From Flavobacterium fryxellicola (lineage in GTDB: Bacteria; Bacteroidota; Bacteroidia; Flavobacteriales; Flavobacteriaceae), in assembly GCF_900143245.1 (NCBI RefSeq), contig NZ_FRDK01000001.1:682001-746000 (forward strand): DNA of 64,000 bases. The letters are read 5' to 3'. The stretch's first letter is position 1. Each line of letters opens with the position of its first letter. The notes beneath the pieces were generated by a model that was given only the letters and a program-made list of their open reading frames with translations, did not search any database and was not told where the DNA came from. Position numbers and translations under genes: made by a program. Shown here piece by piece: positions 26,789 to 31,977 of the stretch.

Positions 26789-27319
26789 TTAGAATCTATA
26801 ACCAACTGTAATTCCACCTCTGCCGATTAATTCAAAATCTCTGTCGTATTTATTGTTGAATAAATTTCGGCCAACTCCTGCATTAACTTCTAATAATAAT
26901 CCTTTATTAGTAATCCATTTTCCACCGAGTCCAATTCCTAAAGCAAAATCAGTTAGCTTTTCGGGCGTCCAGGAGTAGTTGTTAGGTGTTTCTGAGTAGA
27001 CATAATCGTCCACATTATTTAACATTCCAAAGGCTTCACCAAAAAATCCAGCAGCAGGTTTTTTTCCAAAATAATAACGATAATAGGCGGTTGCAGCAAA
27101 ATTAATATCCCAGTTGTATTTATCAACAGGTACACTGACCGTAATACCAACACCTGATTCTTCGTTTAAAAGACGTTCGTAAGTAGCCTCTAAGCTTCCT
27201 AGAACTAATAACAATGCATTTCCTTTCAGCTCGTTTCTCTTAAAATCAATTGTTTCTTTTTCTTGGCTAAAACCAGATAAAAAAGAAGCCAAGCACAATA
27301 CAATAAATAGTTTTTTCAT
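26789..27319 (-). CDS. small outer-membrane beta-barrel protein, DUF3575-like
   Basis: A 176-aa exported protein. Residues 1-18 are a signal peptide (ends SGFSQ). Alternating hydrophobic strands follow (GVGITVSVPV, FAATAYYRYYFG, FALGIGLGGKWIT, LLLEVNAGVGRNL) and the last residues are VGYRF, with the C-terminal Phe typical of outer-membrane barrels. The pattern resembles DUF3575 proteins. Its function is unknown. It is a lone gene that shares a terminator with glyS. Confidence 0.7.
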   Translation of the reverse strand: MKKLFIVLCLASFLSGFSQEKETIDFKRNELKGNALLLVLGSLEATYERLLNEESGVGITVSVPVDKYNWDINFAATAYYRYYFGKKPAAGFFGEAFGMLNNVDDYVYSETPNNYSWTPEKLTDFALGIGLGGKWITNKGLLLEVNAGVGRNLFNNKYDRDFELIGRGGITVGYRF

Positions 27320-27800
27320 AGAATTAGTTTTTTTGCATAAAAGTAAGATAAATTTGTAAAAAAAGTGTTTTTTGTGAAATTTTTTTACATGTTAATTCGG
27401 ACAAGTTTTATTTAAGGGATAAAGTGCCATTACTGAGCAGTGTGAATACAAGAAATAATTACTAGCGGATCTTTTTTTTTTATTCCTGATACACAGTTTT
27501 TTAAGTAGGTTTGACGCTAAATCTTCGATTTTCAATTTCTTGTAAGACAGTAAAAATGCTCTTTAACGGATATATTTGCATTTCATCTTAATATATCAAC
27601 ATTTGTTAAAAACATATTAACAACCCCTACTGAAAAATGGTTAAATGCTTATTTTTAGAATGTTGAATAATAGTTTTTTGGCTAATATATTAAGCTTTTA
27701 TTTGATAATTTCTCAAATCTATCCTAATAAGTTAATGTTCTGAAGTGTGTTTTGCTTCAGATATTTAATATAATGCCTAACAATTCCTGGAAAACTGTTG
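27320..27800. other. long intergenic region before the LytTR gene
   Basis: 481 bp, very A/T-rich, between divergent genes. TATATTTG at 27571-27578 matches the -7 consensus, but lies 222 bp before the LytTR start and has no well-spaced TTG. If it is used, the mRNA would have a leader of about 200 nt. No gene or clear RNA structure was found. Confidence 0.35.
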
Positions 27801-28613
27801 ATGAATTATTCGTACATTATTATTGATGCTAATCAAGAAGATGTTTTGAAAACAAAAGGCATTGCTGATCGTTTTTCGGAGCTTGAATTTCTAGCATCCG
27901 CAAATAATTATTCGGAGGGACTAAATCTTATATTGGAACACACGCCTGCACTAGTATTTCTAGAAATAGATCCTGCTACAACAACTAGTAATTTGTCTCT
28001 AGCACTTATTAATGAGTTGCACCGATATTTAAAAGTGATTCCTAAAATTATTGTTACAACCAGCAAAAAAGACTTAGCCTTTGAGGCAATACAGCACGGA
28101 GTCACAGATTATTTATTAAAACCGTTGTTGCGTATCGATTTAATCAAATTAACTTTAAAATTGAATAAGTCGAAAGTTGAAAAAGCAGAGGATTTAAATG
28201 AGCCTATTTTTAATGATGTGAAGCCAGTATTTCTGCCTCAACAGGAAACAGTAAGTCAAGGTCAATCGTTGACTTTATGTATTAAGTCTTATGGGGATTA
28301 TCGCTACATCGATGCAAAAGACATCTGTTACCTTCGAGCGGATAATAACTCAACGGACCTTCATTTGTACAATGGAGAAATGATAACGGCATTTAAGACA
28401 TTAAAACACTTTGAAGGGGTGTTGTCCTACCCCTTTATCAGAATCCACAACAGTTACATTGTCAATCGCAATTATATTTCAAGAATTCATAGCGGAAATT
28501 CAGTTTGTTATATTAAAAACAGTGCTGTAAAACTTCCTTTTTCTAAATCGTACAAGGTAAATATTGATCTTATTATCTCAGAATTTGCCAACGGAAATTA
28601 TCTTGAAATCTAA
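27801..28613 (+). CDS. LytTR response regulator with a Glu-substituted receiver domain
   Basis: A 270-aa DNA-binding regulator. The N-terminal receiver-like domain spans about 1-120; the LytTR domain spans about 160-265 (LTLCIKSYGDYRYIDAKDICYLRAD, FIRIHNSYIVNRNYI). In the receiver the phosphoacceptor Asp is replaced by Glu55 (ALVFLEIDP), and the N-terminal acidic pair is reduced to one Asp (YIIIDANQ). The switch Lys is kept (LLKPL). Phosphorylation is therefore unlikely; Glu may mimic the active state. A TTG one codon earlier could also start the gene. It lies upstream of the repeat-peptide gene and TPR kinase on the same strand; no cognate LytS-type kinase is adjacent. Confidence 0.85.
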   Translation: MNYSYIIIDANQEDVLKTKGIADRFSELEFLASANNYSEGLNLILEHTPALVFLEIDPATTTSNLSLALINELHRYLKVIPKIIVTTSKKDLAFEAIQHGVTDYLLKPLLRIDLIKLTLKLNKSKVEKAEDLNEPIFNDVKPVFLPQQETVSQGQSLTLCIKSYGDYRYIDAKDICYLRADNNSTDLHLYNGEMITAFKTLKHFEGVLSYPFIRIHNSYIVNRNYISRIHSGNSVCYIKNSAVKLPFSKSYKVNIDLIISEFANGNYLEI

Positions 28614-28789
28614 AAAATAGTCATCTACTTTAATTTGGCGGTCATTCACTCTTAAACGACCCCATTCTACCATAAACGCTGTTTTTTAGAGAATAAACTG
28701 ATGTTGTCTGTGTAGTTTTACAAAAGATTTAACGCTAATGTGATTCTAAAACAAACAAACAAATAACAAAAATACAAAATCCCCAAATT

Positions 28790-29074
28790 ATGAAAAAAGC
28801 AATTTTAACAATCGGTTTATTCTCCTTAGTAATGGTGTTGACTTCATTCACAACTCCAAACACAGATCCTATAATACTAATTGATGCGAATGGTAATGTA
28901 GAATTAATAGGCTCGGGTTCAATCGGTGGAAACAAAAAAGTAGATCTAATAGGTTCGGGATCAATAGGAGGAAATAAGAAAGTAGATTTGATTGGTTCAG
29001 GATCTATTGGTGGTAATAAAAAAGTTGATCTTATTGGATCTGGTTCAATAGGAGGAAATAAAAAGGTGGACTAA
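28790..29074 (+). CDS. small exported protein of 14-residue tandem repeats
   Basis: 94 aa, not recognised as a known family. Residues 1-21 are a signal peptide (MKKAILTIGLFSLVMVLTSF). A short spacer ending in IDANGN leads into four repeats of VDLIGSGSIGGNKK (residues 37-50, 51-64, 65-78, 79-92) and a final VD. Repeat 1 has Glu for Asp; repeats 2-4 are identical in protein. Their DNA differs at 8-11 positions per pair, all silent, so the peptide is under strong selection. Glycine-serine-rich units ending in two Lys suggest a precursor cut at basic sites, or a surface repeat. The leader is A-rich and almost lacks G, as in well-translated genes of this phylum. It has its own terminator, so it is monocistronic ahead of the TPR kinase. 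Confidence 0.75.
   Translation: MKKAILTIGLFSLVMVLTSFTTPNTDPIILIDANGNVELIGSGSIGGNKKVDLIGSGSIGGNKKVDLIGSGSIGGNKKVDLIGSGSIGGNKKVD
28898..29071 (+). repeat. 42-bp coding tandem repeats, four copies plus 6 bp
   Basis: Units at 28898-28939, 28940-28981, 28982-29023 and 29024-29065, then GTGGAC. Pairwise differences among units 2-4 are 9, 11 and 8 nt, none changing an amino acid. Unit 1 differs from unit 2 by seven silent changes and one Glu/Asp change. Confidence 0.95.
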
Positions 29075-29102
29075 GAAGTTTTTAAGTTTTATAAAAATAG
29101 TT

Positions 29103-29137
29103 AAAGGATGTCAATTTTATTGATATCCTTTTTTTTT
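29103..29137 (+). terminator. terminator of the repeat-peptide gene
   Basis: A 13-bp stem with one G-U pair (AAAGGATGTCAAT with ATTGATATCCTTT) is followed by T residues. An ATG for the downstream kinase ORF lies inside this stem, which argues against that start. Confidence 0.85.
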
Positions 29138-29150
29138 GTGAATACTTTTG
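29120..29150 (+). promoter_or_regulatory. promoter of the TPR histidine kinase operon
   Basis: TTG (29120-29122), 20 bp, TACTTTTG (29143-29150). A second -7 match, TATTTTTG, overlaps downstream (29152-29159). The TTG lies in the 3' arm of the preceding terminator hairpin. The start codon at 29180 is 29 bp downstream of the first -7 element. Confidence 0.6.
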
Positions 29151-29179
29151 CTATTTTTGATAAAAATCAAAAGGAACTA

Positions 29180-31204
29180 TTGAAAAGTATTTATCCTATA
29201 TTTTTGCTTCTAGCATTGTTTTTTTTCGGGTGCACCCAAAAAAAGAACTTTAACACCACGATTAATTCCTCAGAGGACAGTCTTTCGTCCTATCTTTCTT
29301 TAGCAAATGATTTTAATTTACCACAAGAAAAAAGAAAACAATTCAATCAGAAAGCCTTTTCTATCATTATTGATCAACCTAATGATTCATTAAATAAAGT
29401 CAATTTATTTAAAGTAGCGAATCGCTACTACAATATGGACAATTGGTCCGATTTTAAAAACACCGTAGATATTATTTTAGAAAAGACAAATCTTACTGGA
29501 GATACAATCAGTAAAACCAAAGCCTATACTTATTTAGGCGATTTTTATGTATCGCAGGCAATTTCTGATAGTGCTTTTATGTATTATTCCAAAGCAGAAA
29601 AGATGTATTTGCAAAGTAATGACAATTATAATTTGGCTAGAATTCGTTTAAACAAATCCATTCTACAATTTAACGAAGGCGATTTTTTAGGCAGTGAGAT
29701 CGCAGTTTTTAATGCTTTGCGTGCCGTAAAAGGAGAAAAGGCTAGTGATATAGTTTATGATTCCTATAGTTATTTGGGTCTAATACATAATGAATTGGGG
29801 AATTATGATCGAGCAATTGAATACAATTCGAAAGCGTTGACCAGTATCGATGATAAAACTTTGCCCTCTGTTTTTCAATCAAAAGCTACTTCCTTGAATA
29901 ATATGGGATATATTTACCAGAATATGAATCGCCACGATAAAGCAATTACTTATTTCCGAGAAGGATTAAAACAGGATAATTTAAAAACAGACAAGCCTTC
30001 TTTATATGCCATGCTAATAGATAATATAGCGTTCTCCAAATTTAAAAGCGGGGATTCTAGAGGTTTACCTGAATTATTTTATCAAGCGCTTCAACTTCGG
30101 GATAGCTTGCAATTAACCTCTGGAATCATCGCAAATAAAATGCATCTTTCAGAATATTTTGCTTTTAAAAAGGATACAGTAAAATCATTGCAGTATGCAA
30201 AGGAAGCATTGAATGAATCTGTGAGTTCTAAAAATTACAGGAGTGTATTAGCAGCACTAAAACGGTTGGCAATAATAGAGCCAAAAAATGCTTCAAATTA
30301 TACCAAACAATACATTGACATTAATGACAGTCTCCAAACGGCAGAGCGTAAAATGGGGGATAAATTCACCCGTATAGAGTATGAAACAGATGAAATAAAG
30401 GATGAAAATACCGATTTAGTAGCGCAAAATAGAAATTTAGTGTTTCTTTTTACTGCTTTAGGCGTATTGGGGTTGTTTATTTTTGTTATTAAAACCCAAA
30501 AGGCAAAAAACAGGGAGTTGCTATTCAAGCAGCAGCAACAAATTGCCAATGCAGAAATCTACAATTTGATGATCTCACAACAGAATACGATCGAAACGGG
30601 CAGAATTGAAGAGAAGAAAAGAGTAGCAAGGGAGCTGCATGATGGTGTGTTGGGAAGAATGTTTGGTGTGCGAATGAACTTAGATGGCTTAAATGGATTT
30701 CAAGATGAATTAGCGGTAAACCAGCGAACGAACTATTTGTCGGAATTGAAAAATATAGAGCAAGACATTCGTGAAATTTCGCATGATCTAAATAGAGAGA
30801 AGTCGGAATTAATTAATAACTTCGTCGCCATTATTGACGGCTTATTCGAAGAGCAAAAAAAGACCTATAAATCAAAACTAATTTCAATTGTGGATTCTGG
30901 TATTAAATGGGAAGTTGTTAGTAATTCTGTAAAAATTAATTTGTACCGGATTCTTCAAGAATCGCTTCAAAACATTAATAAATATGCTCAAGCTAACACC
31001 ATTCGCATCGAATTTAAAAAGGCGGAAGATCACTTGATTTTGAAAATGAGCGACGATGGAATAGGTTTTAATGTAAAAACAGCTAAGAAAGGAATTGGAT
31101 TACAAAACATCCTTTTTCGAACCAATGAATGTGATGGAGTTGTCGATATAAAATCAAAAAAAGGAGAAGGAACAATCATAACAGTTACCTTGCCAATAGA
31201 ATAA
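29180..31204 (+). CDS. TPR-containing sensor histidine kinase (HisKA_3 type)
   Basis: Membrane sensor kinase. I start it at TTG 29180, which has AAGGA just upstream and yields a perfect lipoprotein-like signal peptide (MKSIYPIFLLLALFFFGC, Cys18). The ATG at 29108 lies inside a terminator stem. 674 aa: TPR repeats at about 100-365 on the outer face (NNMGYIYQNMNRHDKAITYF is one), a membrane helix at 420-439 (LVFLFTALGVLGLFIFVI), a coiled coil, the phosphoacceptor His487 in KRVARELHDGVLGRMFG, and an HATPase domain (DDGIGFNV, KKGIGLQNI). The response regulator follows 18 bp later. Being TPR-based, it probably senses a peptide or protein ligand; the adjacent repeat peptide is a candidate, by context only. 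Confidence 0.88.
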   Translation: MKSIYPIFLLLALFFFGCTQKKNFNTTINSSEDSLSSYLSLANDFNLPQEKRKQFNQKAFSIIIDQPNDSLNKVNLFKVANRYYNMDNWSDFKNTVDIILEKTNLTGDTISKTKAYTYLGDFYVSQAISDSAFMYYSKAEKMYLQSNDNYNLARIRLNKSILQFNEGDFLGSEIAVFNALRAVKGEKASDIVYDSYSYLGLIHNELGNYDRAIEYNSKALTSIDDKTLPSVFQSKATSLNNMGYIYQNMNRHDKAITYFREGLKQDNLKTDKPSLYAMLIDNIAFSKFKSGDSRGLPELFYQALQLRDSLQLTSGIIANKMHLSEYFAFKKDTVKSLQYAKEALNESVSSKNYRSVLAALKRLAIIEPKNASNYTKQYIDINDSLQTAERKMGDKFTRIEYETDEIKDENTDLVAQNRNLVFLFTALGVLGLFIFVIKTQKAKNRELLFKQQQQIANAEIYNLMISQQNTIETGRIEEKKRVARELHDGVLGRMFGVRMNLDGLNGFQDELAVNQRTNYLSELKNIEQDIREISHDLNREKSELINNFVAIIDGLFEEQKKTYKSKLISIVDSGIKWEVVSNSVKINLYRILQESLQNINKYAQANTIRIEFKKAEDHLILKMSDDGIGFNVKTAKKGIGLQNILFRTNECDGVVDIKSKKGEGTIITVTLPIE

Positions 31205-31222: not shown

Positions 31223-31918
31223 ATGATGATTGATTTAGCTACTAAAGAAACTGTTAAAAATAAAATACTAATTGTTGATGACCATCCTTTTATTATTGAA
31301 GGATATAAAAATGCAATCACAAGATACAATCCTAAAGAATTTGAATTTGTTATAACACAAGCTAAAGACTGTGAATCAGCGTATCGCATTATTACAAATC
31401 CCGCCATTGCTCCGTTTGATATTGCTTTCTTAGATATTAGCATGCCTCCTTATGAAGAAAAAGGCATGTTTTCCGGGGAAGATTTAGCAAAATTATTGTC
31501 GGACTACATGCCAAATTGCAAAATTATTTTGCTTACCATGTACACAGAGTTGCTGAAGATAAAAACAATTATTAAAACGATAGACCCAAACGGGTTGGTC
31601 ATAAAAAACGATTTAACTTTTGATGAATTGCTTTTTGCCTTTGATAAAGTTATAAAAAACGAAAAATATTACAGTGAATCTGTCCTTAAAATGTTAAAGC
31701 AATCCGAAGCGGATGCTATCGAAATAGATCAATTTGACAAGCAAATTTTATTTCACATTTCTAAAGGAACGACGTTACAGGATATGACGCAATACATTCC
31801 AATTTCAGTAGGTGCAATAGAAAGAAGGAAAATAAATTTAAAAGAATTATTAAAAATAGAAGAAGGCAGCGATGCTGACTTAGTGAAAGAAGCTAAAAAT
31901 AAAGGATTACTTTTTTGA
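31223..31918 (+). CDS. response regulator, NarL/LuxR-like, partner of the TPR kinase
   Basis: 231 aa. The receiver domain has all key residues: acidic pair Asp19-Asp20 (LIVDDHP), phosphoacceptor Asp71 (IAFLDISMP), Thr105 and Lys128 (LVIKND). The C-terminal helix-turn-helix (about 165-215; FDKQILFHISKGTTLQDM, YIPISVGAIERRK) is the LuxR-like variant I associate with flavobacterial regulators paired with HisKA_3 kinases. It begins 18 bp after the kinase stop with AGAGAAG upstream, so the two form an operon. ATG codons at 31223 and 31226 are both possible. A bidirectional terminator follows. Confidence 0.9.
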   Translation: MMIDLATKETVKNKILIVDDHPFIIEGYKNAITRYNPKEFEFVITQAKDCESAYRIITNPAIAPFDIAFLDISMPPYEEKGMFSGEDLAKLLSDYMPNCKIILLTMYTELLKIKTIIKTIDPNGLVIKNDLTFDELLFAFDKVIKNEKYYSESVLKMLKQSEADAIEIDQFDKQILFHISKGTTLQDMTQYIPISVGAIERRKINLKELLKIEEGSDADLVKEAKNKGLLF

Positions 31919-31941: not shown

Positions 31942-31977
31942 ACAAAAACGACATTTTGATAAATGTCGTTTTTGTTT
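31942..31977. terminator. bidirectional terminator, response regulator / thiL
   Basis: A 15-bp perfect stem, ACAAAAACGACATTT with AAATGTCGTTTTTGT, with loop TGAT, lies between convergent stops. Confidence 0.88.

Follow-up and report, generated by a model that had tools for sequence, protein, structure and literature searches.

In the agr, ComC/ComD and ComX/ComP pherotypes, the ligand and the sensor domain diversify together and the kinase core is conserved. The yeast alpha-factor precursor (MFalpha1) is exported and holds several identical copies of a short peptide with processing sequences between them. The receptors of the RRNPP systems (Rap-Phr, NprR-NprX, PlcR and arbitrium) need peptide import, and they are described as intracellular. 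A published detector looks for TPR receptors of 250-500 aa beside a propeptide and has been applied to Firmicutes and viruses (PMC10075063). The signal of the kinase FimS is reported as unknown (PMC11053733).

Here, a locus in the window (the whole stretch of 64,000 nucleotides of Flavobacterium fryxellicola DNA that was analysed) is compared with these systems. The precursor peptide encoded at this locus and the adjacent TPR kinase are proposed to be a cognate ligand/receptor pair, whether the peptide acts between cells or not, and the probability of this reading is put at about 0.77. A wider proposal, considered slightly better than an even bet, is a pheromone system of the whole family Flavobacteriaceae, with multi-copy, lineage-specific linear peptides, TPR kinases outside the cytoplasm and pherotypes that switch by recombination of the module.

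The precursor gene and its repeat units

The peptide-precursor ORF (28790-29074, 94 aa) lies on the + strand, as do all features described below unless stated otherwise. Its hydrophobic leader, MKKAILTIGLFSLVMVLTSFTTP (28790-28858), is of Sec type by inspection, in line with the signal peptide that a sequence-only reading had placed before four 14-residue units. A linker of 15 residues (28859-28903) connects the leader to unit 1 (28904-28945), unit 2 (28946-28987), unit 3 (28988-29029) and unit 4 (29030-29071), each of which is LIGSGSIGGNKKVD, and the stop codon (29072-29074) follows directly. The precursor has no match in Pfam; in NCBIfam only a chance match at 0.053 was obtained and none near the cut-off. 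The leader protein is unusually conserved for a signal sequence, since the window and locus L062 differ at 1/23 amino acids yet at 8/20 silent codons, and its conservation as protein may reflect a role beyond export.

The register of the units was set by homologues. The sequence-only reading used the register V[ED]LIGSGSIGGNKK, in which each unit ends in KK and unit 1 has VE where the others have VD. In single-unit homologues the stop codon stands directly after ...GGNKKVD or ...GGNKKMD; the natural unit in the window is thus LIGSGSIGGNKKVD, and its C-terminus is corrected from KK to VD. In this C-terminal register all four units (28904-29071) are the same peptide, and they are pairwise 7-12 nt apart with no protein change. 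The earlier observation that units 2, 3 and 4 are protein-identical also holds in its own register, with 9 (2-3), 8 (2-4) and 11 (3-4) nucleotide differences, all silent.

The identity of the units is maintained by purifying selection within the genome. When silent and replacement changes are compared between the window's units, as the sequence-only reading had suggested, the minimum number of codon changes is 23 silent and none that alters an amino acid; the chance of 23:0 under a neutral silent fraction of 0.27 is about 7e-14. Silent sites are saturated: two units differ on average at 9.33 of 14 codons, and a random choice among synonymous codons would give 8.3 (95% range 6.5-9.8). Divergence at this level marks the units as old copies whose peptide sequence has been preserved by selection, which bears out the earlier claim that the exact peptide matters. 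The argument that had been made against recent duplication or gene conversion stands for the same units, which are silent-saturated though protein-identical, and gene conversion alone was rejected as a misfit with them. Among the 35 genomes with tandem units, the units are fully protein-identical in 22, silent differences being present in 22/22 of those, and pooling all 35 gives 273 silent changes and 36 that replace an amino acid. Imperfect units occur in the other 13/35 arrays, so unit identity is a strong tendency and not a law. In F. xanthum, units 1-3 are only 0-2 nt apart, a recent amplification.

The peptide gene was followed across the genus. A match at E up to 1 was obtained in 64 of 150 related genomes, the strong matches all lying within the same genus, and 29 loci were taken from named records, mostly of Flavobacterium. 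The regions analysed numbered 69 (L033-L101), or 64 after five duplicates were dropped, since peptides with identical DNA were counted a single time. A LytTR gene is present in 63 of the 64 regions and the kinase in 61; the four without one or the other sit at contig ends, and L079 has its LytTR match at a distance of some kilobases. The peptide gene was recovered in 62/64 regions, or 63 loci with the window, L098 (no peptide ORF by the patterns used) and L068 (start missing) being left out.

Homologues had been expected to vary in unit number and to keep the unit sequence, freely changing units being taken as evidence against the sequence-only reading. Unit number does range from 1 (L055, L057, L060) to 6 (L048), and the units are identical or nearly so within a genome; between species the sequence changes, so this part of the expectation formally fails. 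The unit is LIGSGATGGNKKVD in F. xanthum, IIGAGATGGNKKVD in F. omnivorum, IVGAGSAGGNKKVD in F. weaverense (last unit KID) and LTGGASVGGNKKID in F. rhamnosiphilum. A unit that is near-fixed within a genome and changes between species points to a species-specific signal. Identical cores with unrelated spacers between them occur in L056, L072, L073, L074 and L078, the last of which carries the core IDGGGSAGGGRKQD three times.

Neighbouring genes and the sensor kinase

The gene order LytTR - peptide - kinase recurs across Flavobacterium. In the window, a LytTR response regulator (27798-28613, with ATG at 27801 as a possible alternative start) lies directly 5' of the peptide gene; it matches Pfam LytTR at 5.7e-15 and Response_reg at 4.6e-5, the latter below that model's cut-off. 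It is followed by a conserved element of two half-sites (28643-28677), a candidate LytTR-type direct repeat that we take to resemble LytTR sites. ACT at 28648-28650 and AC at 28669-28670 are invariant in 63/63 aligned loci, the AC pairs being 21 nt apart. A TAGTTTTACA block (28713-28722), conserved across the 63 loci, is a putative promoter element. The gap between the peptide and kinase genes holds an intrinsic-terminator-like hairpin and T-run (29103-29138), the fold of 29075-29150 having -19.4 kcal/mol; such hairpins occur in 57/63 loci, and mononucleotide shuffles, which are a weak control when the DNA is AT-rich, give 23.6. By separating the two genes, the hairpin could allow more peptide than receptor to be made.

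The sensor histidine kinase (29180-31204) probably starts at a TTG that opens a lipoprotein-like leader, MKSIYPIFLLLALFFFGC. The mechanical ORF in the window is 29108-31204; the start is placed at TTG 29180 because the first start of the frame in an 87% identical orthologue (L175) is the equivalent TTG. The protein comprises a TPR sensor domain (29231-30427; Pfam TPR) and a HisKA_3 and HATPase_c kinase core (30593-31201; Pfam 5e-7 and 1.7e-9). A lipobox-like Cys and a later TM-like segment were recognised by eye, and the succession of lipoprotein-like leader, TPR, TM-like segment and HisKA_3 core places the TPR domain in the periplasm as a prediction from topology read by eye. AF2 models the TPR domain as a confident superhelix, in blocks mostly with pLDDT above 90. 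In a Foldseek and VIA-align ranking the first fold was LGN (Z 27.7), a eukaryotic scaffold, and the peptide-binding TPR proteins NprR (5dbk, Z 25.1), RapI (4i1a, Z 24.6) and Rap with competence and sporulation factor (4gyo, Z 24.5) also scored highly. This likeness is not proof of peptide binding, since other, non-pheromone TPR proteins score like Rap.

The response regulator of the kinase (31223-31918; Pfam Response_reg 1.1e-9) is a conserved neighbour. Beyond it and beyond LytTR, the neighbours in the 64 distinct regions, some of which stop at contig ends, are of housekeeping type: GlyRS in 58, ComFC in 55, a ThiL/AIR-synthase-like gene in 53 and PfkB in 25. A DUF3575-type outer-membrane-like gene (26789-27319, - strand) forms another variable islet: its identity to F. 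xanthum is 64-79%, with 87-98% in the GlyRS gene on one side and 93-97% in the DNA that follows. Near 31946, silent divergence from F. xanthum jumps: it is 12% in the response regulator and 48% in the ThiL/AIR-synthase-like gene behind it, and a recombination boundary is likely there.

The association of a small exported-type ORF with the kinase is not confined to the genus. With a limit of E 1e-60, kinases were found in 160/249 sampled genomes of the family and in 136/202 genera; in the order-wide sample, at 1e-50, they were found in 21/118 genomes, one (G106) from a second family, and in the phylum-wide sample, at E 1e-45, in 19/198 genomes, all of the window's own family. Of 87 loci, which comprise the best-scoring part of the family kinase matches plus loci from further samples, 83 have a small ORF with an exported-type leader immediately before the orthologous kinase on the same strand, against 2 on the opposite strand and 2.3 in shuffles. 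Outside the genus the count is 73/76. Export type was judged by inspection and a home-made hydropathy filter; L166 was omitted for too little upstream DNA, and L157 and L184 are the same gene. Among the four loci that did not score, a peptide gene is nevertheless present in L175 and a 58-aa candidate in L140, and L153 and L193 show no leader-like ORF 5' of the kinase. At 21 distant kinase relatives (E 3e-33 to 1e-20, 15 genomes), some of which match only the kinase part of the query and need not all be TPR kinases, a small exported-type ORF was found upstream in 0/21. Multi-copy arrays of other sequence were seen by eye in other genera (STDGDDVPTDTRDS in L124, STDGDDTPTDDRQ in L126, CDDCSHDKDEREAVA in L170 and CDDCAHDSDDRETLA in L186). 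Together with the pairing of ORF and kinase, these arrays indicate that the pairing is family-wide and that the core was apparently multiplied more than once.

Other kinase loci also have small upstream frames. A second TPR kinase of the window's own genome (L172, C35:174439-176040) is 25-27% identical and has a small lipoprotein-like upstream ORF ending in KGPGDEIIIITPPKNPQ; at another own-genome kinase match (L173) a frame passes the leader filter but is unlike these peptides. Three small leader-bearing ORFs lie 5' of one TPR kinase in L182, two of them ending alike in ETDPIIIPKKD.

Co-variation of the mature peptide and the sensor domain

Comparison with F. xanthum in 150-nt windows reveals an islet of divergence. 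The units are 79% identical in DNA, and the TPR region is 78-87% identical in six of eight windows and 93% in the last two. Upstream, identity is 96-100% in the last five windows (mid-LytTR through promoter), an earlier LytTR window being at 84%, and downstream it is 91-97% across the TM segment, kinase core and response regulator. At the protein level, 59/399 TPR residues and 7/203 kinase residues differ. Further pairs were chosen for close kinases and distant TPR domains, or the reverse. In L039/L053, L036/L044 and L090/L092 the mature peptide is 64-75% and the TPR halves are 67-74% identical, against 88-99% for LytTR, promoter, leader, kinase and response regulator (leader 90-99%, TM and kinase 91-93%). 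A similar islet with lower flank identity is present in L055/L062 (81-90% vs 60-63%), and L090/L091 is the reverse case, with more distant kinases (83%), TPR at 87% and peptide at 87%. The edge of the islet lies within the peptide gene, where the leader gives way to the mature part: in four pairs the leader DNA has 90-99% identity and the mature part 60-75%. No islet was seen in L073/L074 (TPR 11.0 vs kinase 7.9% different) or L042/L043 (14.8 vs 11.8%). Parallel change of all four units since the split from F. xanthum was considered, as the units are silent-saturated and the flanks close; an islet that spans peptide and TPR makes replacement by recombination the simpler account. The islet pattern is that of the agr and comCD pherotype modules.

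How might such a module work? In the proposed mechanism, the leader would export the multi-copy precursor and proteolysis would free identical peptides of about 14 residues (LIGSGSIGGNKKVD in the window). Each peptide would then bind the predicted periplasmic TPR superhelix of its own kinase and alter kinase activity, and the response regulators would act on target genes, the LytTR regulator probably controlling the peptide promoter. Each lineage would have its own peptide and a matching TPR domain, a pherotype; the two would be exchanged or diversified jointly against a conserved background of leader, promoter, kinase core and regulators. The sequences show the gene order, the purifying selection on the units and the co-variation of mature peptide and TPR domain; export, cleavage, binding and an effect on the kinase are inferred from there, as is action between cells.

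That last step separates the proposal from an account in which the peptide is a cognate ligand acting only inside its producer, as a periplasmic reporter of, for example, export, proteolysis or envelope state. All of the co-variation evidence fits such a reporter equally. In other genera many of the small proteins are lipoprotein-like by eye, and most are single-copy; lipoprotein-like proteins would stay in the envelope. A reporter, however, has no obvious need for lineage-specific sequences, for replacement of ligand and sensor, or for multiplication of the core in several genera, and it is considered rather unlikely.

The cognate-pair reading itself would be undercut if a diversifying exported protein and a sensor domain were chance neighbours that co-vary only through closeness, within one recombination tract. 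The variable parts are indeed adjacent, so that one tract can carry both. The nearest relative by kinase and by TPR is discordant in 22/58 genomes; in 20 of these the peptide sides with TPR, in the other 2 with the kinase. Among all discordant triplets it sides with TPR in 1278 and the kinase in 564, with 246 tied, counts that are not independent because the genomes are related. When TPR was set against other segments as the peptide's match in 56 genomes, it prevailed by 16:2 over the C-terminal half of LytTR, 17:4 over the N-terminal half, 20:2 over the kinase and 15:2 over the response regulator. The C-terminal half of LytTR is equally near the peptide gene yet tracks the peptide worse. In a joint rank regression (56 genomes), significance is reached only by the far TPR half (residues 241-440; beta 0.506, p 0.001) and not by the half nearer to the peptide gene (-0.162, p 0.93). 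Both results argue against closeness as the explanation, as does the pairing that holds across the family and the 0/21 at the distant kinase relatives. Other measures are less discriminating. Simple correlations with peptide distance hardly differ between the six segments (0.48-0.59, the near TPR half lowest and the far half highest), and in a first partial Mantel test on C-terminal 14-mer distance (49 genomes) TPR (0.195) had no advantage over the kinase (0.187). With whole-mature-peptide distance, chosen afterwards, the values were 0.31 for TPR and 0.139 for the kinase (kinase p 0.019). A sliding-window profile was too noisy to place a binding region, kinase windows reaching +0.36 and -0.32. 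L069 (contig end) was omitted from the Mantel, triplet, segment and sliding-window analyses, and the first Mantel test also omitted L061, L065 and peptides not ending in D. Taken together, the mature peptide co-varies with the TPR domain, and chance neighbourhood is held to be quite improbable.

Structure prediction bears on whether the units form a structural or adhesive repeat protein, stacked into a beta array at the cell surface or within a biofilm matrix and regulated by the neighbouring genes. In an AF2 model of a four-unit fusion, the array does form stacked strands, one strand per unit, at pLDDT of about 65-86. AF2 is reported to give confident but unrealistic beta-solenoids for perfect repeats (PMC11795689), and the array is not used as evidence on that ground. 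A single unit tethered to the TPR domain was disordered, with pLDDT 30-39 and values of 50 or more at residues 13-15 only. No docking is supported by this model, and a disordered lone unit also sits poorly with a stacking repeat. Single-unit homologues exist, as do cores with unrelated spacers, and a structural role would leave the co-variation with the sensor domain unexplained; it is judged very improbable. The peptide might instead be a toxin, bacteriocin-like or serving self-recognition, and the kinase its sensor for immunity or induction. Such a toxin would account for a multi-copy exported peptide, strong diversification and ligand/sensor pairing, but with no immunity gene, dedicated exporter or modifying enzyme seen between LytTR and the response regulator, housekeeping-type genes further out and a precursor that lacks a Pfam match or a near-cut-off NCBIfam match, it is the least probable of these accounts.

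Comparison with known peptide signalling systems

The sequence-only reading had offered two roles for the precursor. The precursor of a repeated signal peptide is the best fit to the gene order, to the 1-6 units, to the spaced cores and to the co-variation with the sensor domain; for a repeated surface ligand, nothing pointing to surface display was found. Among the matches listed from the open-access literature, where few subscription papers or preprints were covered, the available text describes no peptide pheromone system in Bacteroidota. If the proposal is true, this would be the first such system in Bacteroidota as far as the literature searched shows, and a dominant Gram-negative phylum would use peptide signals in dialects that differ by species. 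It would become possible to test the ligand class of TPR-type sensor kinases, with the locus as a model for what periplasmic TPR kinases sense, and ligand/receptor co-evolution would be open to study in natural pairs such as L036/L044 and L090/L091/L092.

Among described kinases, FimS of Porphyromonas gingivalis is alike in being a histidine kinase with a periplasmic TPR sensor domain. The NCBIfam model NF053520 (FimS) matches residues 126-444 of the kinase at 2.6e-7, and with 29.3 bits against a cut-off of 600 the kinase is not a member of the FimS family. With the RRNPP systems the locus shares a TPR superhelix and an exported-type precursor gene beside it, the likeness of the TPR domain being one of fold only. 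Unlike the receptors of those systems, the TPR domain is predicted to be periplasmic and to be joined through a TM helix to a histidine kinase, and a cytoplasmic receptor with HTH or Rap/NprR architecture was not found at the locus. With MFalpha1 the precursor shares several identical copies of a short peptide behind an exported-type leader. The yeast system is eukaryotic with a GPCR receptor, the arrays here often run head to tail without spacers, and no sequence relation is claimed.

The closest parallel is with the Gram-positive agr, ComC/ComD and ComX/ComP systems, where a short exported-type peptide is likewise encoded beside a sensor kinase and a regulator. As in pheromone two-component systems, a small exported-type precursor lies beside the kinase, and ligand and sensor co-vary with a conserved kinase core. 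No AgrB-like or ComQ-like modifier was seen adjacent, the neighbours being LytTR, kinase and response regulator, and the locus differs further from agr, ComC and ComX in its linear multi-copy precursor, its HisKA_3 kinase and its predicted periplasmic soluble TPR sensor in a Gram-negative bacterium. Since there is no AgrB-like neighbour, the receptor is predicted to lie outside the cytoplasm and the precursor belongs to no Pfam or NCBIfam family, the system is a member of none of these groups. Most likely, it works like the Gram-positive pheromone two-component systems, with a precursor like that of the alpha-factor and a sensor fold like that of the RRNPP receptors.
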